Of a stretch of 64,000 nucleotides of DNA, positions 4,953 to 21,965 are shown in pieces; the stretch's first letter is position 1; every line of letters begins with the position of its first letter. A model generated the notes under the pieces. That model was not told the DNA's origin, searched no databases, and saw only the letters and a program-made list of their open reading frames with translations. The position numbers were made by a program, and so were the translations under genes. Origin of the DNA: Streptomyces musisoli (GTDB taxonomy: Bacteria; Actinomycetota; Actinomycetes; Streptomycetales; Streptomycetaceae); the NCBI RefSeq assembly GCF_016741855.1, contig NZ_JAERRH010000002.1, positions 186,001-250,000 on the forward strand. Reading direction: 5' to 3'.

Positions 4953-6506
4953 TCACACGCTCTGATAGGCGTCCCGCATGGTGCGCTTGAGTGCCTTCCC
5001 GGTGAGGCCGATGTGTTCGTCGGGCGCCTTGACCACGAGCCGGTCGATCACCGGGAGTTCCCGCTGGGCCAGCACGGCGTTGATCCGGGAGTGCAGGTCC
5101 GCCAGATCGGAGCCGGCCGACGGCAGGTCGACGGTGAGCACCAGCCGCTGCGCGGCCTTGGGGGCCGGCCGGGAGTGGACCAGCGAGCAGTCGAACACCT
5201 CCGGGATCTGCCGCATGATCAATTCCTCGATCTCGCAGCTGTAGATGGTGCCGTGCGCAGTGTCGATGCTGTCGGTGGTGCGGTCGACGTGGTAGAAGCG
5301 GCCCTCCTCGTCGCGGTAGGCGAGGTCGCCGGTGAGCCAGTAGCCCCGCACCCGGTTCTTCTCGCTCAGCAGCGAGTCGTTCCAGTAACCGGCGGTCACC
5401 GTGGGGGACTTCAGTGCCAGCCGACCCACCGTGCCGTGCGCCGCGGGCTCGTCCTTGTCGTCGAAGACCTGGGCGTCGATCCAGTCGAAGGGCCGCCCTA
5501 TGCACCGTCCGTAGCGGTTGGTGGTGGGGGAGTGGACATTGCGGAACATGGCGAAGCCGAACTCGGAGGAGCCGAAGTTGTCGATGAACAGCGACCCGGG
5601 GGCCGGCTGCCCGCTGCGGTCGCGATGGTTGCCGAGCTGGACGAGCTTCCTGATGTGCCGCTCGTGGTTGGCGTCACCGGTGGACATCCAGCGGGCGACC
5701 GAGCCGAAGTCGTAGCGGTCCAGGTCGAGCCGGCACAGGTCGACGAAGACCTTGGGGAAGGCGGCGACCAGCTCGGGCCGGAACTCCTCGATTCCGCAGG
5801 CCAGTTGCTCGCCCTCGCGCGCGGTGATCAGCAGCACCCGGCTGCCCCGGGCCACGCAGGACATCAGCACGGAGATCGCCGAGGCATGGCTCTGCGGCAG
5901 CGCGGACAGGACGCGCCGGCCGAGGTCGGCCCCGATCTGCTGCCGGATCCCGAAGAAGAAGCCCAGGTGGTTGAACTGGACGGCCTTGGGTACGCCGGTG
6001 GTGCCGGAGGTGTGCGCGATGAGGACGGGGTCGTCGTCCGCGTGAGTGAACGCCGTGTAGGGCCCGTCGGCGTAGGGCTCGGCGTCGTAGTACGGCAGGT
6101 CCAGCGCCGTACGCTCCAGCCTGCCGTCGCTGACCACGGCGACCGCGCCGACCCGGGAGATGAACGCGGCCGCGATGTCCGGCCGCAGCCCGCTGTTGAG
6201 GAAGACCGGAATGGCGCCGATCTTCGTCAGGGCGATGTAGTGGATCAGATAGCGGACGCTCTCGTCCAGGAAGACCGCCACCGGATCCTTGGCCCCGATG
6301 CCGTCGCGCTGGTATCCGGCGGCCACCCGGTCGGTCAGCTCGTCGAGTTCGGCGAGCCCGAACTCACGTACCGCATGCCCCTCGGGGTGCCGGTACTCCT
6401 TGTCCAGCTCGATGACGCTCGCTGCGGCGGTGCGGTCGACGGCGGCCGCGGTGCGGAAGAAATTGCCCGCCCCCAGCCCGTCGACGAGCATCAGTTCGTC
6501 TGCCAT
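4953..6506 (-). CDS. Acyl-CoA synthetase / AMP-dependent ligase
   Basis: A 517-aa member of the ANL superfamily. The ATP-binding P-loop TSGTTGVPK is at residues 166-174, a YWLTGDLAYRDEEGRF block follows in the C-terminal third, and the terminal catalytic-lysine motif is GLTGKALKR (Lys504). The hinge/A8 region reads VDRTTDSIDTAHGTIYSCEIEE and departs from the usual GRxKD pattern. It should activate a carboxylic acid as acyl-AMP and pass it to CoA or to a carrier domain. In this cluster it could supply the acyl group for the N-terminal T domain of the megasynthase, or feed the acyl-CoA dehydrogenase/CCR route to an extender unit. The start at 6506 has GGAAGG about 11 nt upstream. It lies 21 bp after the hot-dog thioesterase gene, probably co-transcribed. 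Confidence 0.88.
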   Translation of the reverse strand: MADELMLVDGLGAGNFFRTAAAVDRTAAASVIELDKEYRHPEGHAVREFGLAELDELTDRVAAGYQRDGIGAKDPVAVFLDESVRYLIHYIALTKIGAIPVFLNSGLRPDIAAAFISRVGAVAVVSDGRLERTALDLPYYDAEPYADGPYTAFTHADDDPVLIAHTSGTTGVPKAVQFNHLGFFFGIRQQIGADLGRRVLSALPQSHASAISVLMSCVARGSRVLLITAREGEQLACGIEEFRPELVAAFPKVFVDLCRLDLDRYDFGSVARWMSTGDANHERHIRKLVQLGNHRDRSGQPAPGSLFIDNFGSSEFGFAMFRNVHSPTTNRYGRCIGRPFDWIDAQVFDDKDEPAAHGTVGRLALKSPTVTAGYWNDSLLSEKNRVRGYWLTGDLAYRDEEGRFYHVDRTTDSIDTAHGTIYSCEIEELIMRQIPEVFDCSLVHSRPAPKAAQRLVLTVDLPSAGSDLADLHSRINAVLAQRELPVIDRLVVKAPDEHIGLTGKALKRTMRDAYQSV

Positions 6507-6527: not shown

Positions 6528-6992
6528 TCACGTCGTCGCGTCGGCCGCCGGGGCCAGCCACTCCTGCATCGCGTCACGGATGTCGTCGGGAATCGGGACC
6601 GGGCGGTGTTCGTCGAGCGACATGCACACCAGGACGGCTTTGATCTGCACCCGGACATCGGACGGGTCCGGGCCGGTGCACGAGAAGCGGAGATGGAACG
6701 AGCTGGTGCCGATCCGCGGCACCGAGAGAGCGAAGCGCACGGTGTCGCCCAGCCGGCTCGGCGCGTGGAAGTCGCACTCCAGGCGCACGGTGGGGATGCC
6801 GAGGCGCCGCTCGGCGAAGAGCCCCGCGTAGTCCGTCCGTAATCCGGTCTCGAACCACTCCTGGAGCAGCTCGTTCATGAGCAGCAGATACTGCGGGTAG
6901 AACACGATGCCGGCCGGGTCGCAGTGGTGGAACCAGATGCGCTTGTCCCGCGCGAAGATCGGTGTCGCGTCGTCAGCAGCTGTGGTGTGCAC
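6528..6992 (-). CDS. Hot-dog fold acyl-CoA thioesterase (4HBT type), TTA-containing
   Basis: A 154-aa protein of the 4-hydroxybenzoyl-CoA thioesterase family. The diagnostic motif HHCDPAGIVFYPQY is near residues 22-35, with Asp25 at the catalytic position. It hydrolyses acyl-CoA or acyl-carrier thioesters. I place the start at GTG 6992 (GGAAGAG about 11 nt upstream) rather than further upstream, which gives the normal family length. Codon 51 is TTA (+ positions 6840-6842), so translation should depend on bldA. The neighbouring acyl-CoA synthetase suggests it releases an acid, edits misprimed carriers or recycles CoA. It is one of three free-standing thioesterases in the cluster. Confidence 0.85.
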   Translation of the reverse strand: MHTTAADDATPIFARDKRIWFHHCDPAGIVFYPQYLLLMNELLQEWFETGLRTDYAGLFAERRLGIPTVRLECDFHAPSRLGDTVRFALSVPRIGTSSFHLRFSCTGPDPSDVRVQIKAVLVCMSLDEHRPVPIPDDIRDAMQEWLAPAADATT

Positions 6993-7064
6993 GGTTCCCG
7001 GGTCTCTTCCGTCGCGTCGTGGGGGCTGTGCCCTGTCGGGGACGCCTCGCCGGAAGCGTAGGGG

Positions 7065-7133
7065 GCGGCCCGTCCCGCCCCGGCCCACGAGTCAGCAAGC
7101 TGCCAAACCGCGGGTGGGGGCGGGACGGGCCGC
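7065..7133 (-). terminator. 17-bp perfect inverted repeat after LuxR-type gene
   Basis: Arms 7065-7081 and 7117-7133 are perfectly complementary (17 bp, nearly all G/C) with a 35-nt loop. The stem begins 3 nt past the end of the LuxR-type gene and lies upstream of the thioesterase start, so it probably separates the two minus-strand transcripts. Confidence 0.65.
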
Positions 7134-7135
7134 GG

Positions 7136-8005
7136 TCACCTCGGGCACCAGCGGGCCGCCCACGGGGCCGCCGCCCCGGCACCGCGCAGCGACCGCCCCA
7201 GCCCGAAGGAACCGGACCCGCGGGGCTGCCGCTCGACGGGCTCGACGTCGACGTCGACGTCCGCGTCGACGTCGATGAGCCCCAGCGCGGCCGCCTTCAC
7301 CCCGGCCTCGAACCGGGACTCCGCCCCCAGCACCTCCATCAGGCTCGCCACGCACCGCCGGTACGTGCGCACCGAGATGCCGAGCTGGCGGGCGGCGACC
7401 TCGTCCTTGCGGCCAGAGCCGAGCAGCCGCAGGATCTGCGGGGTCTTCTCGTCCAGGATGTTGCGCTGGTAGTGGAGGAACCTGTCCAGGTCGCAGGCCC
7501 CGTTCCAGGCCGCGTCGAGCAGGGCGATCAGCGGCTCGACCACGACGGGGGAGTGCACCAGGACACAGCGGCGGCTCTGCCCGGACTGCCACATCAGGAT
7601 CCGCTTGCGGTCGAAGACCACCATCCCGTGCAGATCCACGGTGCTGATCCGGACCCGGGCCCCGTTCTCCCGGCTGATCCGCTCCAGGAACTCCAGCCGG
7701 CCGTGGCCGTCCAGCTCGTCCGGAGGGCAGATCACGGACGTCGTGACCGACCGGCTGCCCAGGGCGGTGATGCTCTCCCGGGCCCGGTCGATTTCCTCCC
7801 GGCGGTATCCGTTCATCTGGCAGTTGACGAAGAGCACTTCCCTGCGCACCGTCCGCAGCAGGCTCTCCGTCAGCTCGAAGTACTCGACGGCGTGGTGGTC
7901 CGCGATCTCTCCTCTGGCGGGCTGCGCCGGAACGCGGACGACACGCGGACCGGCGCGGCCGTCGACCCGACGCAGTACTTCCTCGACCTGCTGTGTGCCT
8001 GTCAC
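7136..8005 (-). CDS. LuxR-type transcriptional regulator
   Basis: A 289-aa protein. Residues about 40-180 resemble the effector region found in actinomycete regulators with a phospholipase D-like/TrmB-type sensor. Residues about 186-243 form a LuxR/GerE helix-turn-helix (TPQILRLLGSGRKDEVAARQLGISV then RTYRRCVASLMEVLGA). No phospho-acceptor or ATPase domain is seen, so it is a standalone regulator. The C-terminal tail has an Asp-Val repeat (residues about 245-256) encoded by short gtcgac repeats, followed by a Gly/Arg-rich end. GTG 8005 has GAGAGGTG close upstream. It lies between the CCR operon and the thioesterase/synthetase pair, the usual place for a pathway activator. Its target is unknown. 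Confidence 0.8.
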   Translation of the reverse strand: MTGTQQVEEVLRRVDGRAGPRVVRVPAQPARGEIADHHAVEYFELTESLLRTVRREVLFVNCQMNGYRREEIDRARESITALGSRSVTTSVICPPDELDGHGRLEFLERISRENGARVRISTVDLHGMVVFDRKRILMWQSGQSRRCVLVHSPVVVEPLIALLDAAWNGACDLDRFLHYQRNILDEKTPQILRLLGSGRKDEVAARQLGISVRTYRRCVASLMEVLGAESRFEAGVKAAALGLIDVDADVDVDVEPVERQPRGSGSFGLGRSLRGAGAAAPWAARWCPR

Positions 8006-8112: not shown

Positions 8113-9483
8113 TCATACGGGGCCGGTCCCGGTGCGGAAGCGGTTGATGGCGTGCCGGTGGCGGGCGCGCAGCTCCGCGTCCCGCACCCCCAGCCCTTCC
8201 TGCGGGGCGAGTGCCAGGACGCCGACCTTGCCGTGGTGGAGGTTGCGGTGGACGTCGTAGGCGGCCTGCCCGACCTCCTGCAGCGGGTAGACCCGCGACA
8301 GGGTCGGATGGATCCGCCCCTTGCCGATCAGCCGGTTGGCCTGCCACGCCTCGCGGTAGTTCGCGAAGTGCGAGCCGATGATGCGCTTCAGCGACATCCA
8401 CAGGTAGCGGTTGTCGAACTGGTGCTGGTAACCGGACGTCGACGCGCAGGTGACGATCGTGCCACCCTTGCGGGCCGCGTAGACCGAGGCGCCGAAGGTC
8501 TCCCGTCCCGGGTGCTCGAAGACGATGTCGACGTCCTCGCCACCGGTCAGCTCACGGATCCGGGAGCCGAACCGGCGCCACTCCTTCGGGTCCTGGGTGT
8601 GCTCGTCCTTCCAGAACCGGTAGTCCTCGGCACTGCGGTCGATGATCGCCTCGGCGCCCATCCGCCGGCAGATCTCCGCCTTCTGCTCGCTGGAGACCAC
8701 ACAGATCGGGGTGGCGCCGCCGACCAGCGCGAGCTGGGTCGCGTAACTGCCGAGCCCGCCGCTCGCGCCCCAGATCAGAACGTTGTCGCCGACCTTCATG
8801 CCCGCGCCGTTGCGGGAGACCAGCTGCCGGTAGGCGGTGGAGTTCACCAGCCCGGGGGCGGCGGCCTCCTCCCAGGTGAGGTGCCCGGGCTTGGGCATCA
8901 GCTGGTTGGACTTGACCAGGGCCAGCTCGGCGAGCCCGCCGAAGTTGGTCTCGAACCCCCAGATCCGCTGCTCCGGGTCGAGCAGCGTGTCGTCGTGCCC
9001 GTCCGGGGACTCCAGCTCCACGGACAGACAGTGCGCGACGACCTCGTCACCGGGCTTCCAGGCGTTGACCCCCGGGCCGGTGCGCAGCACCACACCGGCC
9101 AGGTCCGAACCGATCACGTGGTACGGCAGGTCGTGCCGCCCGGCGAGCGGCGAGGTACGCCCGTACCGCTCCAGGAACGCGAAGGTCGGTACCGGTTCGA
9201 AGGTCGACGACCATACGGTGTTGTAGTTGACGGAGCTGGCCATGACGGCCACCAGCGCCTCGCCCGGGCCGAGTTCCGGGGTGGGCACCTCCTGGACGTG
9301 CAGGGACTTGCGCGGGTCCTTGTCCGCGCTGCTCATCCCGGCGAACATCTCCGTCTCCTCGCGCAGCAGCACGGCCGCCCGGTAGGACTCGGGCACCGGC
9401 AGCGCGGCCACCTCCTGCGCGGTCAGCCTGGGGCGTCCGGACTCGCCGGACTCCGCCAGGACCGCCGACAGCTGCTCCCTCAC
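8113..9483 (-). CDS. ccr: Crotonyl-CoA carboxylase/reductase paralogue 1
   Basis: A 456-aa medium-chain dehydrogenase/reductase of the CCR family, which uses NADPH and CO2 to turn 2-enoyl-CoA into alkylmalonyl-CoA. Recalled CO2-site residues of characterised CCRs are all present: Asn88 in NYNTVW, Phe177/Glu178 in WGFETN and His372 in IIGSH. The nucleotide-binding loop is GASGGLG. Pocket positions carry bulky residues (Ile174 in EQRIWGFE, Phe373 right after His372), as expected for short substrates such as crotonyl-CoA, giving ethylmalonyl-CoA. The start is GTG 9483, overlapping the stop of the second CCR by 4 nt (GTGA), so the two are translationally coupled. An in-frame opening further upstream is only antisense/shadow sequence. 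Confidence 0.92.
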   Translation of the reverse strand: MREQLSAVLAESGESGRPRLTAQEVAALPVPESYRAAVLLREETEMFAGMSSADKDPRKSLHVQEVPTPELGPGEALVAVMASSVNYNTVWSSTFEPVPTFAFLERYGRTSPLAGRHDLPYHVIGSDLAGVVLRTGPGVNAWKPGDEVVAHCLSVELESPDGHDDTLLDPEQRIWGFETNFGGLAELALVKSNQLMPKPGHLTWEEAAAPGLVNSTAYRQLVSRNGAGMKVGDNVLIWGASGGLGSYATQLALVGGATPICVVSSEQKAEICRRMGAEAIIDRSAEDYRFWKDEHTQDPKEWRRFGSRIRELTGGEDVDIVFEHPGRETFGASVYAARKGGTIVTCASTSGYQHQFDNRYLWMSLKRIIGSHFANYREAWQANRLIGKGRIHPTLSRVYPLQEVGQAAYDVHRNLHHGKVGVLALAPQEGLGVRDAELRARHRHAINRFRTGTGPV

Positions 9484-10814
9484 CTGCCACCGTCCGCGGC
9501 GCGGAAGGCGTGCAGCCGGTCCTCGCCGATCCGCGCCCGGGTGGCGGGATCGGTGATGCCGAGCCCCGGCTCGGGGGCCAGGCACAGGACACCGACCTTG
9601 CCGATGTGGCGGTTGGTCTGGATGCTGCGCGCGGCCTCGGCCACCTCGTCCAGCCGGTAGACGGCCGACAGGGCGGGAACGACCCGGCCCTGCTGGATCA
9701 GGCGGTTGGTCTCCCACTGCTCCTGGAGGTTGGCGCCGTGGCTGCCGATGATGCGCTTCAGCTTCATCCACAGGTAGCGGTTGTCGAACTGGTGCTGGTA
9801 GCCGGTGCTGGAACCGCAGGTGACGACCGTGCCGCCGCGCCGGGCGAGGAACACCGACGCCGCGAAGGTCGCCTTGCCGACGTGCTCGAACACGATGTGC
9901 GGGTCCTCGCCGACCGCCTTGCGGATCGCCTTGCCCAGGCGCTTCCAGCCCTCCGGCCGCTGGAGGCTGCCGGGGTCGCCCTGCTCGATCTCGGTGCGGT
10001 CGATGACGACGTCGCAGCCCAGGCCGGCCAGGATCTCGGCCTTCTCCGGGGAACTGACCACGCCGATGGACGTGCCGCCGCCGTTGCGCACGAACTGCAC
10101 GGCGTAGGACCCCAGACCGCCGCTCGCGCCCCAGATGAGCACCACGTCGCCCTGCTTCATCCGGGCGCCCCGGTCACTGACCAGCATGCGGTAGGCGGTG
10201 GCCGCGCACAGCGGGTTGACGGCCGCCTCCTCCCAGGACAGATGCGCGGCCTTGGGCAGCAGCTGGCTGGCGCGCACCACCGTGTAGTCCGCGAGGCCGC
10301 CGAAGTTGGTCTCGAAGCCCCAGGCTCGCTGGTCCTCGCCGAGCATGCTGTCGGCGTGGCTGGCCGGCTCCTGGTCGTTGACATGGGCCGTGGCGATCAC
10401 GACGTGGTCGCCGGGCTTCCAGTGCTGGACGGCGGAGCCGACGCGCACCACGACACCGGACGCGTCGGAGCCGAGGACGTGGTACGGCTGGTCGTGCCGG
10501 GCGTGCCAACCGCCCTGGGAGGCGAGGTGCTTGAGGAACCCGAACGTCGGCAGCGGCTCGAACATCGCCGACCAGACGGTGTTGTAGTTGATGGCGCTGG
10601 CCATGACCCCGACCAGCACCTCGTCCGGGGCCAGTTCGGGCATGGGCACATCGCCGACGTGCAGGGACTTGCGTACGTCCTTGTCCTCCACGCCGGTGAA
10701 CAGCTCCGTGTCCTCGGCGCGGACGAACGCGGCCCGGTACTGCTCGGGAACCGGGTGCCGCAGCAGCTCCTCGCCGCTGCTCCCCGTCGTGACGGCTTCG
10801 GTGAGGGTCGTCAT
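9480..10814 (-). CDS. Crotonyl-CoA carboxylase/reductase paralogue 2 (enlarged-pocket type)
   Basis: A 444-aa CCR homologue, clearly related to but distinct from its downstream neighbour. The CO2-binding set is intact (Asn78, Phe167/Glu168, His359), so it should be a real carboxylating enzyme. Two pocket positions differ from paralogue 1: Ala164 in DQRAWGFETN instead of Ile, and Gly360 after the catalytic-site His instead of Phe. As I recall, small residues at these places are seen in CCRs that accept longer enoyl-CoAs (CinF/SalG type). It therefore may make a propyl- to hexyl- or branched alkylmalonyl-CoA. ATG 10814 is preceded by GAAGGAAG. It lies 35 bp after the acyl-CoA dehydrogenase gene, which could supply its enoyl-CoA. 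Confidence 0.9.
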   Translation of the reverse strand: MTTLTEAVTTGSSGEELLRHPVPEQYRAAFVRAEDTELFTGVEDKDVRKSLHVGDVPMPELAPDEVLVGVMASAINYNTVWSAMFEPLPTFGFLKHLASQGGWHARHDQPYHVLGSDASGVVVRVGSAVQHWKPGDHVVIATAHVNDQEPASHADSMLGEDQRAWGFETNFGGLADYTVVRASQLLPKAAHLSWEEAAVNPLCAATAYRMLVSDRGARMKQGDVVLIWGASGGLGSYAVQFVRNGGGTSIGVVSSPEKAEILAGLGCDVVIDRTEIEQGDPGSLQRPEGWKRLGKAIRKAVGEDPHIVFEHVGKATFAASVFLARRGGTVVTCGSSTGYQHQFDNRYLWMKLKRIIGSHGANLQEQWETNRLIQQGRVVPALSAVYRLDEVAEAARSIQTNRHIGKVGVLCLAPEPGLGITDPATRARIGEDRLHAFRAADGGR

Positions 10815-10849: not shown

Positions 10850-12517
10850 TCACGGGTGGAGGAGATGGTCGGGTGCGCCGTCCAGCAGGGCGCGGACCAG
10901 CCGCCCGTAGGCCGCCGGCGGCTCCTCGGCCACCTGCTCCCACAGCGGGGCCAGCCGCGCCCGCGCGCCGTCGCAGACGACGGCCGCGAGGTCCTGGGCG
11001 TTCGGCTCGTGCTGCTCGTCGGCCTGGGCGGCCCGCGCCAGTACGACGGCCATCGTGAACAGTTCGGTGGCGATGCGGTTGACGGCGATCAGCGTCTGCT
11101 GCCGCTCCAGCAGCTCGGCGGCCGGCTGTGCGCCGGTCAGCTCGCGGCAGATACGGGCCAGCCGCCCGACGTCCTCGCGCACCGCCTCCAGGTGGGCGCG
11201 GTTGCCGGGCGACAGGGCACCCGCATCCAGGGCGCCGTCGGTGCCGGGCAGCACCTGGCCGCCGTCCCGGTAGTAGCCGGCGAGCATTCGCGCGGCCAGA
11301 TACCGGTCGAGGTTGAAGTCGACGCCACCGGCGACCCGCATGCCGCGGATCTCCCGTTGCGCCTGCTCCACGGGGTGCGGGGCCAGACCGCGCGCCGCCT
11401 TGCTGTCCGCGGTCTCGTACCCCCGCGCGCCCAGCAGCGACACCGTACGGTCCACCACCCGCCACGCCGTCATCGAGGTGAGGTTCTTCAGCGCGTCCCG
11501 CTCCCAGTTCAGGGCGGTGGCGTCGGTGTGCAGCATGGCCCAGCGGACCGCGCTGTCCATGGCGTAGACGTCCGCGACGGACTCGGCGAGCAGCTGCCGG
11601 ATCGCCTCGTACGACGCCAGCTCCCGGCCGTCCACGGCCCGCTCGGCCACGAAGGAGCGGGACCACTCCAGGCAGCGCCGGGCGAGTGCCATCGACGGCG
11701 CGCTGGTCACATAGACCCGGGCCAGCGCGTGGATCTCCGCGTACGGCGAGGCCCTGCGCCACTCGGCCTGCGCGGGCAGCGTGTGCCCGGCCGGGACGAA
11801 CACCTCGGTCAGCCGCAGATGCGAGATCGGGGTGGCGTGCAGGCCCATGAACGCGTGGTGGGCGACCACCTCGAAGCCCTCGGCGGGCAGCTCGACGAAG
11901 AACAGGCCCACCTGGTCGCCGTCCCCGCCGCCCTCGACGGTCGCGGTCACCGCGACCAGGCCGGCCGCGGCTCCGTTGGTGATGAACATCTTCTCGCCGG
12001 TGAGCAGGTACCCGGACCCGTCCGCGGTGGGCCGGGCCACCGTGGACCGGCCCGTGTTGCCCGCGCCCTCGGGCTCGGTGCTGGCCAGCGCGCCCACGGT
12101 GCCGGCGGCCACGTGCTTGGCGAGCAGCTCGCGCAGTTCGCCGTCGGGCACCGCGGGCAGGAAGGCGATCGGGCCGAGGGCGTTGTGCGCGGACAGCAGC
12201 ATGCTGATGGCCGGGGCGCGCTCGGCGGCCGTCTCCAGCACCCGGAAGCCGTTGTAGTCCGACAGCGCCAGGCCGCCGTCCTCGCGGGGCAGCAGCATCG
12301 CCAGGAAGCCGGCCTCGTGGAGCGCGTCGAGCAGCCCGCCGGGCAGCTCGCTCCGGCCGTCCAGGCCGTCCGGGACATGGGTGTCCAGCACCCGCGTCAT
12401 CGCCCGGACCGCCTCGTCCCCGGCCCGCCGGTCCGCCTCGGACTGCCGGGGGAAGGAGCGCAGCCGGTCCCAGGGGAACCCGCCCCGGCTCATCTCCTGA
12501 AGGACACTCACGGTCAT
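10850..12517 (-). CDS. Acyl-CoA dehydrogenase homologue with atypical active site
   Basis: A 555-aa flavoprotein of the acyl-CoA dehydrogenase fold, longer than the usual 380-400 aa because of a C-terminal helical extension (from about residue 415). FAD/substrate motifs are visible: TEPEGAGNTG at 147-156 and GEKMFITNG at 174-182. Where family members have the catalytic base (RIYEGTSEIQ), this protein reads RVAGGVDFNLD, so the normal Glu is Gly397. A base could instead come from a helix-G residue (Glu261 lies nearby). It may desaturate an acyl-CoA to feed the CCRs, or have been repurposed, for example as a flavin oxygenase/decarboxylase as in epoxyketone pathways. ATG 12517 overlaps the thioesterase stop by 4 nt. 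Confidence 0.85.
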   Translation of the reverse strand: MTVSVLQEMSRGGFPWDRLRSFPRQSEADRRAGDEAVRAMTRVLDTHVPDGLDGRSELPGGLLDALHEAGFLAMLLPREDGGLALSDYNGFRVLETAAERAPAISMLLSAHNALGPIAFLPAVPDGELRELLAKHVAAGTVGALASTEPEGAGNTGRSTVARPTADGSGYLLTGEKMFITNGAAAGLVAVTATVEGGGDGDQVGLFFVELPAEGFEVVAHHAFMGLHATPISHLRLTEVFVPAGHTLPAQAEWRRASPYAEIHALARVYVTSAPSMALARRCLEWSRSFVAERAVDGRELASYEAIRQLLAESVADVYAMDSAVRWAMLHTDATALNWERDALKNLTSMTAWRVVDRTVSLLGARGYETADSKAARGLAPHPVEQAQREIRGMRVAGGVDFNLDRYLAARMLAGYYRDGGQVLPGTDGALDAGALSPGNRAHLEAVREDVGRLARICRELTGAQPAAELLERQQTLIAVNRIATELFTMAVVLARAAQADEQHEPNAQDLAAVVCDGARARLAPLWEQVAEEPPAAYGRLVRALLDGAPDHLLHP

Positions 12518-13238
12518 ATCAGCTTCCTCAGCGCCTGCATGAACGCCTCCGGATGTTCCCGGAGGTAGAAATGTCCGCCGGGGAACAGCTCCACGGTGCA
12601 CTCGGCCGTGGTGTGCTCCCGCCACTGGGGCAGATACGGCGACGCCAGGTCGCTCTCCCCGCCCAGCACCGAGATCGGGATGTCCAACGGCTCCTGGCGG
12701 ACGTGCTGGTAGGTCTCGAAGATGGTGAAGTCGGCCCGGTAGGCGGGCAGCACGAGCCGTACCAGCTCCGGGTCCGCGAGCAGCGGCGCGGGCAGCCCGC
12801 CGTAGCGCTCGTTGACGGCGGCGAGCAGCTCGTCGTCGCCGAGGGTGTGCAGCGGGCTGCGCGGGTGCGGCAGGTGCGGCGCCGGGTAGGCGGACAGCAC
12901 CAGCCGCTCGGGCAGCGGACGGCCCGCCGCGCGCAGCGCGCGGGCCGTCTCGAAGGCGGTCAGCCCGCCGAGGCTGTGCCCGAAGAACACGAACGGACCG
13001 GCGAAGTCGACGGACTCGACGAGGCCCTGGACGAAGGTGTCGATGGAGTCCAGCGGGGTCTCCATGACCCGGGTGCCGCGCCCGGGCGGCTGGATGCCCC
13101 AGACCTCCACGTCCGGCAGCTCGTCCGCCCAGCGCACGTACTCGCCGGGCGAACCGCCGCTGTGCGGGAAGCAGTACAGGCGCAGGGACGCCTCCGGGCG
13201 CCGCCGCCGGCGCACCAGCCACGGTGACTTGTCGGCCA

Positions 13239-13239
<1 letters not shown>
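12514..13239 (-). CDS. Type II thioesterase (TEII) after the megasynthase
   Basis: A 241-aa alpha/beta-hydrolase of the GrsT/RifR group. The N-terminal block LYCFPHSGGSPGEY, the nucleophile elbow GHSLGG (Ser89) and the C-terminal GGHFYLREH with the catalytic His are all visible. Such enzymes clear misloaded acyl groups from carrier domains and sometimes release product. ATG 13239 overlaps the megasynthase stop by one base, and its own stop overlaps the next start by 4 nt, so it is firmly inside the operon. Because the megasynthase lacks a TE domain, this protein or the TEII at 21966 is the best candidate for chain release. Confidence 0.93.
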
Positions 13240-19926: not shown

Positions 19927-19949
19927 TGACCGCCGGGTTGCGGCGGTCA
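19927..19949 (-). terminator. Small hairpin at the end of the MFS gene
   Basis: TGACCGCC (19927-19934) and GGCGGTCA (19942-19949) form an 8-bp perfect stem with a 7-nt loop. It overlaps the stop codon of the minus-strand MFS gene and lies 131 bp before the megasynthase start. It may reduce read-through into the megasynthase, which would then need its own promoter in 19800-19926. Confidence 0.4.
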
Positions 19950-21170
19950 GTTGGTGGCGGACAGGTCGGGTTGCGCGCTCTGCGGGTCGGCGGCGCGCTT
20001 GCGGGCGAACAGGGCCGCGGCCACCGCGAGCACGATGACCGCCAGCACCTCGATGCCGGTGGCGGTAAGCGTCAGCGCGGTCATCGAACCGCTGCCCGTC
20101 GCCACACCGCCCAGGGCGCCGCCGGCGGCGATGCCCAGGTAGGTGGAGGAGCTGTTGAGGGAGAGGGCGACGGTGGGCGCCGGGATGTCCAGGCTCGCGA
20201 TGCGGTGGTTCTGCCCGGTGGGCAGCGACCAGCAGGAGACGCTGATGACGGCGAGGATCAGCCCGAACAGCCCGCGGCCGGCCCAGGATCCGCTCGGCGT
20301 GGGGAGCGTGAACAGGGCGAGCACCAGCAGCCCGACGGTCAACACCGCGGCGGACCCGAAGTAGGCGCGGTCGCCGCCCCAGCGGTCGGCGGCCCGGCCG
20401 CCCACCGCGCTGCCGGCGACCGCGGCGACACCCCACACCAGCAGGAAGACGCTGACTCCGGTGGAGTCGACCTTCGTGGTCTTCATCGCCAGCGGTGCGA
20501 TGTAGGTGAACATGGTGAACACACCGGCGCACGCGAGCGCGTTGGACAGCAGGGCGGCCAGCACCCGCGGGTGCGCGGCCACACCGAGCCGCTCCCGGAT
20601 GGTGACCGACGGCGGGGTCGGCACCTCCGGCAGGGCCATCATCAGGACGACCGTCGCCAGCAGCGCCATCGCCGCGACCAGGACCAGGGTGATCCGCCAG
20701 CTGCCGATGGCGCCGACCAGTGTGCCGATGGGGACACCGAGCGCGGTGGCGGCGGACATACCGCCCGCCACCAAGGCGATCGCCCGGCCGCGCCACTCCT
20801 CCGTGGTGACGCTGACGGTGACCGCGATGCCGCAGGGGATGTACAGGGCGGCGCCGAAGGCGGCCAACACCCGTGCGACCATGAGGACTTCGTAGGTGGG
20901 GGCGACGGCGCCCAGCAGGTTGGACGCCACGAAGGCGATCAAGGCGGCCACCAGCAGCTGCTTGCGGCGCACCTTGGCGGTCATGGCCGCGAGGATCGGC
21001 GCGCTGATCGCGTACAGCAACGCGAAGACCGTGACCAGCTGTCCGGCCACGGACGTGGTGACGTCGAAGTCCCGGGCGATGCGGTCGAGCAGGCCGCTGA
21101 TCACGAAGCCGTCGGTGCCGATGCTGAACGCACCCAGGCTCAGCGCCAGCAGCAGAATCCGGTTCGGCAT
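19947..21170 (-). CDS. MFS transporter (DHA1/AraJ-like)
   Basis: A 407-aa protein with about 12 membrane helices. It starts with MPNRILLLALSLGAFSIGTDGFVISGLL, typical of the AraJ/DHA1 sugar-efflux and drug-efflux group. A conserved RVLAAFGAALYIPCGIAVTVSV segment and a second-half GGRAADRWGGDRAYFG loop support this. ATG 21170 is preceded by GAGGAAAGGA; an in-frame opening back to 21257 is not needed. The gene is the first of the minus-strand cluster block and faces a long regulatory region shared with the divergent thioesterase. It is a probable exporter for the cluster product. Confidence 0.87.
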   Translation of the reverse strand: MPNRILLLALSLGAFSIGTDGFVISGLLDRIARDFDVTTSVAGQLVTVFALLYAISAPILAAMTAKVRRKQLLVAALIAFVASNLLGAVAPTYEVLMVARVLAAFGAALYIPCGIAVTVSVTTEEWRGRAIALVAGGMSAATALGVPIGTLVGAIGSWRITLVLVAAMALLATVVLMMALPEVPTPPSVTIRERLGVAAHPRVLAALLSNALACAGVFTMFTYIAPLAMKTTKVDSTGVSVFLLVWGVAAVAGSAVGGRAADRWGGDRAYFGSAAVLTVGLLVLALFTLPTPSGSWAGRGLFGLILAVISVSCWSLPTGQNHRIASLDIPAPTVALSLNSSSTYLGIAAGGALGGVATGSGSMTALTLTATGIEVLAVIVLAVAAALFARKRAADPQSAQPDLSATN

Positions 21171-21965
21171 CTGGCTAGATCCTTTCCTCTGCTGACGGTC
21201 GATGCTGCGGGCCGATGCCGGTGAGGACTCTGGGGGGCATGTTCTTTCGGATCCCATCGGGCTGGTGGCTGGCTGTGGTGGTGGCAGCAGGGGGGGCAGG
21301 AGCCGGGCGGGAGCGTGCGTGCGCGGCCGGACGGCGGCGCCACCCCGGCTGTTTACGGAACAGTTCTGTGCATGATCCGGATACGGACCGAAAAGGGATA
21401 TCCGCGACCGGTGAGAAGTGCCGTCGGTAAACCCGAGATCACATGATTTTGAGGTTACGTGGACTCGGTCGACACGCTGCGGCCCATCTATGCCCCACCC
21501 CCGTTTCGCTCCCCCGTAAACCCCGCAAGATGATGCCGGTTTGCGACAGCACTGAAGTTAGCCTCGGCTCACTAAGGGAGTCAAGCTTGGGGGGTCGACC
21601 GCATTGTGACGCGGAACTCAGCGCCGACTTGCCCCACTTGACCTGCGGAGGCGATGCGGGGAGCGGCGATCTGGGAGGTGCAGGAAATTGCACATCCGGA
21701 TGATCTGCAAAAAGTTTCACATCACACGCGGTGATGCCGCTAAAACGGCCGGTGATAACGTGCAATTGTTTGCAGTTGGGCTCTCAGGGGTCGCCACCGG
21801 GAGGCCGGACGGCCATGGCCGTGCCGCACATTAAATGCCGAGCGGGTGTCTTGCGCGGAATGTACACTCCACGACGCGGCGGCGTACGCCGTTCTCCGCA
21901 CCCCGTCCGCGCCCGGCCGATCAGAACCGGTGCGGCGAAGCGAAGAAGCAAAGGAGTGGCGGACC
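21171..21965. promoter_or_regulatory. Long divergent promoter region of the cluster with repeated half-sites
   Basis: About 795 bp between the divergent MFS and thioesterase genes, distinctly richer in A/T than the rest of the window from about 21420 to 21850. It holds three GTAAAC/GTTTAC hexamers (21351-21356, 21427-21432, 21516-21521). There is a dyad GTGCA-N6-TGCAC (21678-21693), a half-site TGCAA (21705-21709) and a dyad TGCAA-N4-TTGCA (21761-21774). CATCAC-N5-GTGATG (21720-21736) is a further dyad. These are candidate operators for the LysR or LuxR regulators. No confident -35/-10 pair was found and no gene is apparent inside. Confidence 0.55.

Follow-up and report, generated by a model that had tools for sequence, protein, structure and literature searches.

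A 64,000-nt stretch of Streptomyces musisoli DNA (assembly GCF_016741855.1, contig NZ_JAERRH010000002.1, positions 186,001 to 250,000; hereafter the window) holds a compact operon in which two genes for crotonyl-CoA carboxylase/reductase (CCR) enzymes adjoin behind those for a hybrid nonribosomal peptide synthetase-polyketide synthase (NRPS-PKS), a thioesterase and an acyl-CoA-dehydrogenase-like flavoenzyme related to EpxF. Transcription runs from an MFS exporter gene through the NRPS-PKS, thioesterase and flavoenzyme genes to a CinF-type and then a primary-type CCR gene (Table 1). From the NRPS-PKS onward, successive genes are separated by a 1-nt overlap, a 4-nt overlap (ATGA), a 35-nt gap and a 4-nt overlap (GTGA). 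A promoter and terminator scan returned 0 promoter-like sites and 1 terminator-like site versus 1.1 expected. The 4-nt overlap of the CCR genes, already described in an initial annotation of this DNA, is confirmed, with the GTG start of the primary-type gene lying inside the GTGA that closes the CinF-type gene. The gene that this annotation called paralogue 1 (Ile/Phe) is the second of the two to be transcribed. The span it considered omitted the EpxF-like gene, which likely gives the choice of extender unit its meaning.

Both proteins pass the 378.55-bit cut-off of the crotonyl-CoA carboxylase/reductase model TIGR01751 (CinF-type, 560.3 bits; primary-type, 609.0 bits). Among solved structures, the CinF-type CCR is closest to the 'octenoyl-CoA reductase/carboxylase' 4A0S (670.9 bits; runner-up 506.6), which together with 4A10 we take to be CinF, and the primary-type CCR is closest to the crotonyl-CoA reductase 3HZZ (857.1 bits; 489.6 for 4A0S). 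The two enzymes are approximately 56% identical and fall one each into the two separate clades of a 121-row CCR tree (37 primary-type and 84 CinF-type rows). This tree does not include CinF itself, and most of its CinF-type rows were fetched for similarity to the window's CinF-type CCR, with duplicate rows dropped. Tandem duplication is ruled out by this low identity and by placement in two clades. We take the CO2-site residues to be Asn76, Phe167, Glu168 and His359 in the CinF-type CCR and Asn86, Phe177, Glu178 and His372 in the primary-type CCR; alignment bears out the earlier claim that both enzymes keep them. These are the residue types named for the Kitasatospora setae enzyme (PMC10176493). 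The primary-type gene has a full-length open frame with CO2-site and pocket residues intact and a pairwise dN/dS of 0.24-0.32, values that point to purifying selection here, yet the gene appears dispensable in relatives.

The residues proposed to set chain length, Ala164/Gly360 and Ile174/Phe373, are as first described and occupy the same alignment columns. Across the aligned rows, the pairs separate the two types: every one of the 37 primary-type rows, among them the window's, has Ile/Phe, and none of the 84 CinF-type rows does; these carry Ala/Gly (43), Ala/Val (13), Ile/Ala (12), Ala/Ala (11), Ala/Ile (3), Ala/Ser (1) or Ile/Ser (1). Ala/Gly is the aligned pair of 4A0S, of a CCR from A. atramentaria DSM 43919, which produces matlystatin (L048, taken as MatL, for which octenoyl-CoA carboxylation is proposed), and of an R. 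fascians CCR (L040, taken as LydM of a hexylmalonyl-CoA pathway that is described for strain D188). The first position (164/174), three residues before the CO2-site Phe, presumably lines the acyl pocket. The second (360/373) aligns with Val350 of AntE, as placed through an AntE-like protein (genome G019) that matched AntE structures; this residue, next after the GSH motif, has number 370 in the 4Y0K chain, which becomes 350 once the 20 residues ahead of the Met are discounted, and is Val in 4Y0K and Ala in 4Y1B. A review credits AntE V350G with wider substrate scope (PMC6164871). The proposed likeness to the small pocket residues of CinF is thereby strengthened, at both positions by the Ala/Gly proteins and at position 360 by AntE. 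Clade, nearest structure and pocket residues together make it very probable that the two CCRs differ in chain-length preference, the CinF-type enzyme favoring long and the primary-type enzyme short substrates. The CinF-type CCR would most likely make a C6-C8 alkylmalonyl-CoA, our best guess being hexylmalonyl-CoA from 2-octenoyl-CoA. The initial annotation had predicted ethylmalonyl-CoA from one enzyme and a longer or branched alkylmalonyl-CoA from the other; the difference in length is supported, and the calibrating CCRs point to straight chains, leaving 'branched' with no specific support.

Table 1. Features of the two-CCR operon and adjoining genes (window coordinates)
Feature	Position	Strand	Remarks
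Primary-type CCR	8113..9483	-	GTG start, 456 aa, Ile174/Phe373; predicted crotonyl-CoA to ethylmalonyl-CoA
CinF-type CCR	9480..10814	-	ATG start, 444 aa, Ala164/Gly360; predicted medium-chain
GTGA overlap, 4 nt	9480..9483	-	CinF-type CCR stop and primary-type CCR GTG start
Acyl-CoA-dehydrogenase-like flavoenzyme, EpxF/EpnF/MatG kind	10850..12517	-	ATG overlaps thioesterase stop, 4 nt (ATGA)
Thioesterase, stand-alone, type II-like	12514..13239	-	Pfam Thioesterase
Hybrid NRPS-PKS, 2185 aa	13239..19796	-	ACP-C-A-PCP-KS-AT-ACP; AT motif GAGH
MFS exporter	19947..21257	-	adjoins core in the 3 relatives with flank read, 68-72% identity
289-aa protein, next gene downstream of CCRs	7136..8005	-	no Pfam match at 0.001
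4HBT-like thioesterase	6528..7088	-	co-oriented; membership uncertain
AMP-dependent ligase	4953..6506	-	co-oriented; membership uncertain

The flavoenzyme has EpxF (9GN5) as its best solved relative (E 2.5e-113; next entry 2e-23) and is 39% identical to the matlystatin-locus enzyme taken as MatG. It and eight other family rows have Gly where the lone ordinary acyl-CoA dehydrogenase aligned has Glu (GEG), the catalytic residue of acyl-CoA dehydrogenases. Its relatives and this missing Glu make it unlikely that the enzyme produces the enoyl-CoA substrate. In the matlystatin pathway, MatG is proposed to decarboxylate and desaturate an alpha-monomethyl beta-keto acid; the partner synthase MatO has no methyltransferase domain, and the C-terminal unit is labeled by propionate (PMC5719088). 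By analogy, decarboxylation and desaturation of a beta-keto acid is the probable role of the window's enzyme, and the alpha-substituent it processes is probably set by a CCR-made alkylmalonyl-CoA. According to Pfam, the NRPS-PKS contains three carrier domains and single C, A, KS and acyltransferase (AT) domains; no methyltransferase, KR, DH, ER or TE domain is among the 11 families matched.

A core of NRPS-PKS, thioesterase, flavoenzyme and CinF-type CCR genes is shared with four further Streptomyces genomes, those of S. humi (L009, G084), S. griseoruber (L011, G125), Streptomyces sp. IBSBF 2953 (L010) and G068. Identity to the window is 82-83% for the CinF-type CCR and 61-64% for the flavoenzyme. 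Among 392 sampled Streptomyces genomes, an EpxF-like gene was found in 15 at <=1e-100, and four of these, including the window's own, carry the core. Wider flavoenzyme searches with stricter cut-offs added no orthologous core, which was present in 3 of 150 relatives (the window's included, all known) and 1 of 394 in the class (the window's own). The flavoenzyme query, 10850-12523, was two codons longer than the gene in Table 1. Genome G118, with an EpxF-like gene and two CCRs nearby, was considered as a further core and proved to hold a PKS locus. There (L101:7055-10766), two CinF-type CCRs, with Ile/Ser and (by eye) Ala/Ala pairs, flank a KAS III-like gene; this stretch lies approximately 2.8 kb from the EpxF-like gene, with two P450 genes between.

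Motifs such as the GAGH of the window's AT may be linked to larger extenders. GAGH occurs in all five cores, with TAGH in MatO and SAAH in two other loci (L042 and L144). It is neither HAFH nor YASH, the motifs described for malonyl and methylmalonyl units, respectively (PMC6164871). Supply of two extenders by the CCR pair is likely from its sequence features. That the AT uses the CinF-type product seems a reasonable expectation, and use of both extenders is plausible, although less likely than not. Of the earlier suggestion that one operon may offer two extenders to a single AT, the single AT is upheld as part of the conserved core; three of the five clusters speak against a strict need for both CCRs.

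The CinF-type CCR is kept with an open frame in 5/5 cores, and a full primary-type gene in 2/5 (the window and G068). In G068, the pair is intact and overlaps by TTGA or TGATG, depending on start choice. The other three loci have no full primary-type gene and show apparent pieces of it after the CinF-type stop codon. Aligned with G068, L010 enters the first 27 nt of the primary-type gene and resumes over approximately the last 44 nt plus 25 nt of flank (62/69 identical); in L009, the last 49 nt of the gene are matched at 44/49. As a control, a 45-nt stretch ending 6 nt before the G068 gene end was compared with 1000 random sequences having the target's dinucleotide transitions. L009 and L010 each scored 38/45, reached by 0/1000 random sequences in each case. 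The L011 scar is weak: only the last 24 nt of the stretch match well (19/24, 0/1000), whereas over 45 and 36 nt as many as 665 and 855 of 1000 random sequences did as well, and global alignment gives no block at the scar position. Thus, the primary-type gene appears to have been deleted in three relatives, leaving two clear scars and one weak one. Other primary-type Ccrs are present in both of the pair-losing genomes searched. Because the remains differ and G068 is nested in the CCR tree among the three without a pair, an ancestral pair would imply at least two, and probably three, losses.

Of 19 CinF-type CCR matches counted in 111 sampled genomes, 2 (window and G068) adjoin a primary-type gene. 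The types adjoin in none of 80 named loci and both lie within the fetched stretch in three (L011, L043 and L077); several of these loci end at contig ends, and records very near the window's may be absent. Two of the three, from Marinactinospora thermotolerans (L043:415-10326) and Goodfellowiella coeruleoviolacea (L077:9001-15854), have the types approximately 4-7 kb apart on the same strand and are possible further two-extender clusters. Within G068, the paired primary-type copy shares 92% identity with the unpaired one, with which it groups (98/80), and it shares 81% with the window's paired copy. Since the tree separates the paired copies, pairing may have arisen by two recruitments, or by one followed by gene conversion; both fit.

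The window's genome has four CCRs at 1e-100 or better, including two other primary-type Ccrs. An emc-like operon (C1, ~504-514 kb; L089) contains its own ccr alongside 3HCDH, TetR, methylmalonyl-CoA-mutase-like, HpcH/HpaI and acyl-CoA dehydrogenase genes, and another CCR, which shares a clade with G102, G125 and G084 copies, lies beside a different PKS locus (L090). Because of these two, the primary-type gene in the present operon is an extra copy; lying outside the emc operon, it is a primary-type enzyme in a biosynthetic operon. A reason for such placement could be that seen in Streptomyces tsukubaensis, where emc-operon ccr1 has no significant role in FK520 formation from its native promoter on carbohydrate media and contributes under a strong promoter (PMC4606968). 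The same study describes one promiscuous AT that takes allyl- and ethylmalonyl units for FK506 and FK520.

Several neighboring genes are of less certain relevance. The 289-aa protein gene, the AMP-dependent ligase gene and the 4HBT-like thioesterase gene were unmatched at 1e-15 in the relatives' fetched flanks. The best NCBIfam match of the ligase (4953-6506) is the AvaA6 diazotase model at 399.8 bits, well below its 975-bit cut-off. Luciferase-like monooxygenase and flavin-reductase-like genes adjoin at the left edge (14-1483). Beyond that edge, a modular PKS occupies contig positions 142-179 kb on the same strand, its nearest end approximately 7 kb from the window start, and is possibly a separate cluster. 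Seven AT motifs were found in this region (G000:C61:142165-185138; L155, L156, L106), namely four HAFH, two YASH and one YAAH, together with a chorismate-binding and amidotransferase gene (para-aminobenzoate/anthranilate-synthase-like), an AMP ligase gene and a methyltransferase gene. In Streptomyces sp. IBSBF 2953 (L010:10486-16243), the CCR gene precedes HMGL-like (isopropylmalate-synthase-like), aconitase, isopropylmalate-dehydrogenase-like (Iso_dh) and aminotransferase genes. DNA matching this leucine-biosynthesis-like set follows in other relatives (L009, L011, L091); the set, which may provide a chain-extended amino acid for the A domain, does not adjoin the CCRs in the window. Because of this, and because A-domain residues differ, the amino acid used by the window's synthase is probably not that of its relatives.

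Collectively, we lean toward a compact pathway of the EpxF/MatG kind with a single NRPS-PKS module, in which the alpha-substituent comes from a CCR-made alkylmalonyl-CoA rather than from a methyltransferase domain. The CinF-type CCR would be the main extender supplier, providing C6-C8 alkylmalonyl-CoA, most likely hexylmalonyl-CoA, while the primary-type CCR, co-expressed with the module, would provide ethylmalonyl-CoA without reliance on the emc operon. Mainly the long extender would be taken by the single AT, with ethyl perhaps a minor route. Release by the thioesterase would yield an acyl-aminoacyl beta-keto acid, and its decarboxylation and desaturation by the EpxF-like enzyme would give an alkenyl ketone or perhaps an epoxyketone. 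Hexyl and ethyl congeners would be expected to form two series that differ by 56.06 Da.

A number of observations weigh against this scheme, which for enzymes, product and transcription alike is drawn from sequence. Both CCRs appear not to be strictly needed, with three of five clusters having apparently lost the primary-type gene and kept the CinF-type gene. Those three nevertheless keep the GAGH motif and can therefore do without the ethyl unit, and the AT motif is no calibrated predictor of long extenders. The separation of the window and G068 paired copies in the tree does not favor a single ancestral pair, although a single clade was not rejected (p-AU 0.129). The A-domain residues, read by eye against the GrsA layout, differ from those of the relatives. 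Finally, the modular PKS to the left could use ethylmalonyl-CoA.

This last point bears on the idea that only the CinF-type CCR feeds the module and that the primary-type CCR serves the general ethylmalonyl-CoA pool or the neighboring PKS. The position and strand of that PKS, its one odd AT motif of seven (YAAH) and the losses in 3/5 cores agree with the idea. It is nonetheless unlikely, as the primary-type gene has its coupling with the CinF-type gene rather than with the neighboring PKS, G068 has the same coupling with different downstream genes, and two other primary-type Ccrs already exist in the genome. The differing scars of three relatives (one weak) would also suit a primary-type CCR that was once recruited, is now redundant with the emc-operon Ccr and is on its way out; the intact frame, CO2-site and pocket residues and dN/dS of the window's gene make such a fading passenger improbable.

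Two further explanations concern the CinF-type product, and we regard both as very improbable. Rearrangement to an alkylsuccinyl starter, known from the actinonin, matlystatin and lydiamycin pathways, is suggested by the matlystatin locus, to which the NRPS-PKS is 51% and the thioesterase 60% identical over aligned stretches and where the CCR product is proposed to pass to a mutase. A search for hexylmalonyl-CoA mutase, which did find a partial match in the matlystatin locus, gave none at 1e-5 in the window or its left-hand 19.5 kb (the right flank was not covered) and none in the relatives' loci searched; the starter role was judged unlikely on this lack of a mutase match in the DNA searched. 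Slightly less probable still is a dosage effect in which both CCRs make ethylmalonyl-CoA in vivo. CinF is described as broad in scope, and nine of nine enzymes tested in the same work took C4 and C5 enoyl-CoAs (PMC8252502), but the Ala/Gly pocket is common to CCRs tied to octenoyl-CoA, and what every core retains is the CinF-type gene.

Extending the favored pathway, we speculate that two CCRs with different pockets and one methyltransferase-free module let an EpxF-type enzyme convert beta-keto acids bearing an alpha-hexyl or alpha-ethyl group to long- or short-chain alkenyl ketones or epoxyketones, and that lineages switch to one chain by deleting the primary-type CCR; this proposal is more doubtful than the pathway itself. 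If the favored pathway is right, the extender unit, and not methylation, would decide the side chain of an EpxF-type electrophilic ketone, and this protease-inhibitor warhead chemistry would no longer be limited to methyl and dimethyl groups. Two of the five genomes retain the pair and three bear scars, so together they would be natural two-CCR and one-CCR versions of one pathway, making in vivo use of two CCR-made extenders by a single AT directly testable. Among the matches listed from open-access literature, titles and abstract openings disclosed no such two-CCR operon or EpxF-type pathway with CCR-made extenders, the matlystatin paper excepted.

The window's primary-type CCR shares clade, Ile/Phe pocket and CO2-site residues with primary Ccr enzymes (3HZZ, 3KRT and K. 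setae 6OWE; we take 3HZZ and 3KRT to be Streptomyces enzymes). An emc operon with ecm is the setting expected of a primary ethylmalonyl-type Ccr gene, and the window's gene lies outside such an operon. The predicted medium-chain CinF-type CCR shares subfamily, Ala/Gly pair and biosynthetic setting with CinF (4A0S/4A10), MatL and LydM; the MatL and LydM products are proposed to pass to a mutase, for which the window has no match. EpxF, of the epoxomicin, eponemycin and TMC-86A group (EpxF, EpnF, TmcF), is the closest solved relative of the flavoenzyme, yet the methyltransferase domain in the PKS module that marks epoxyketone proteasome inhibitors is absent from the window's NRPS-PKS. The matlystatin system (MatO/MatP/MatG) has, like the window, a methyltransferase-free PKS module, a thioesterase, an EpxF-type flavoenzyme and a CCR in the locus. 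Its module, however, builds in a unit derived from propionate, and the hydroxamate warhead is the proposed destination of its CCR product, while in the window the CCR genes come immediately after that for the flavoenzyme and the mutase search gave no match. In FK506/FK520 biosynthesis (AllR, Ccr1), the CCR genes lie in different operons, the specialized extender is allylmalonyl-CoA and Ccr1 has no significant part from its native promoter; as proposed for the window, one AT takes two CCR-made extenders, and an overexpressed primary-type Ccr1 can supply one of them.

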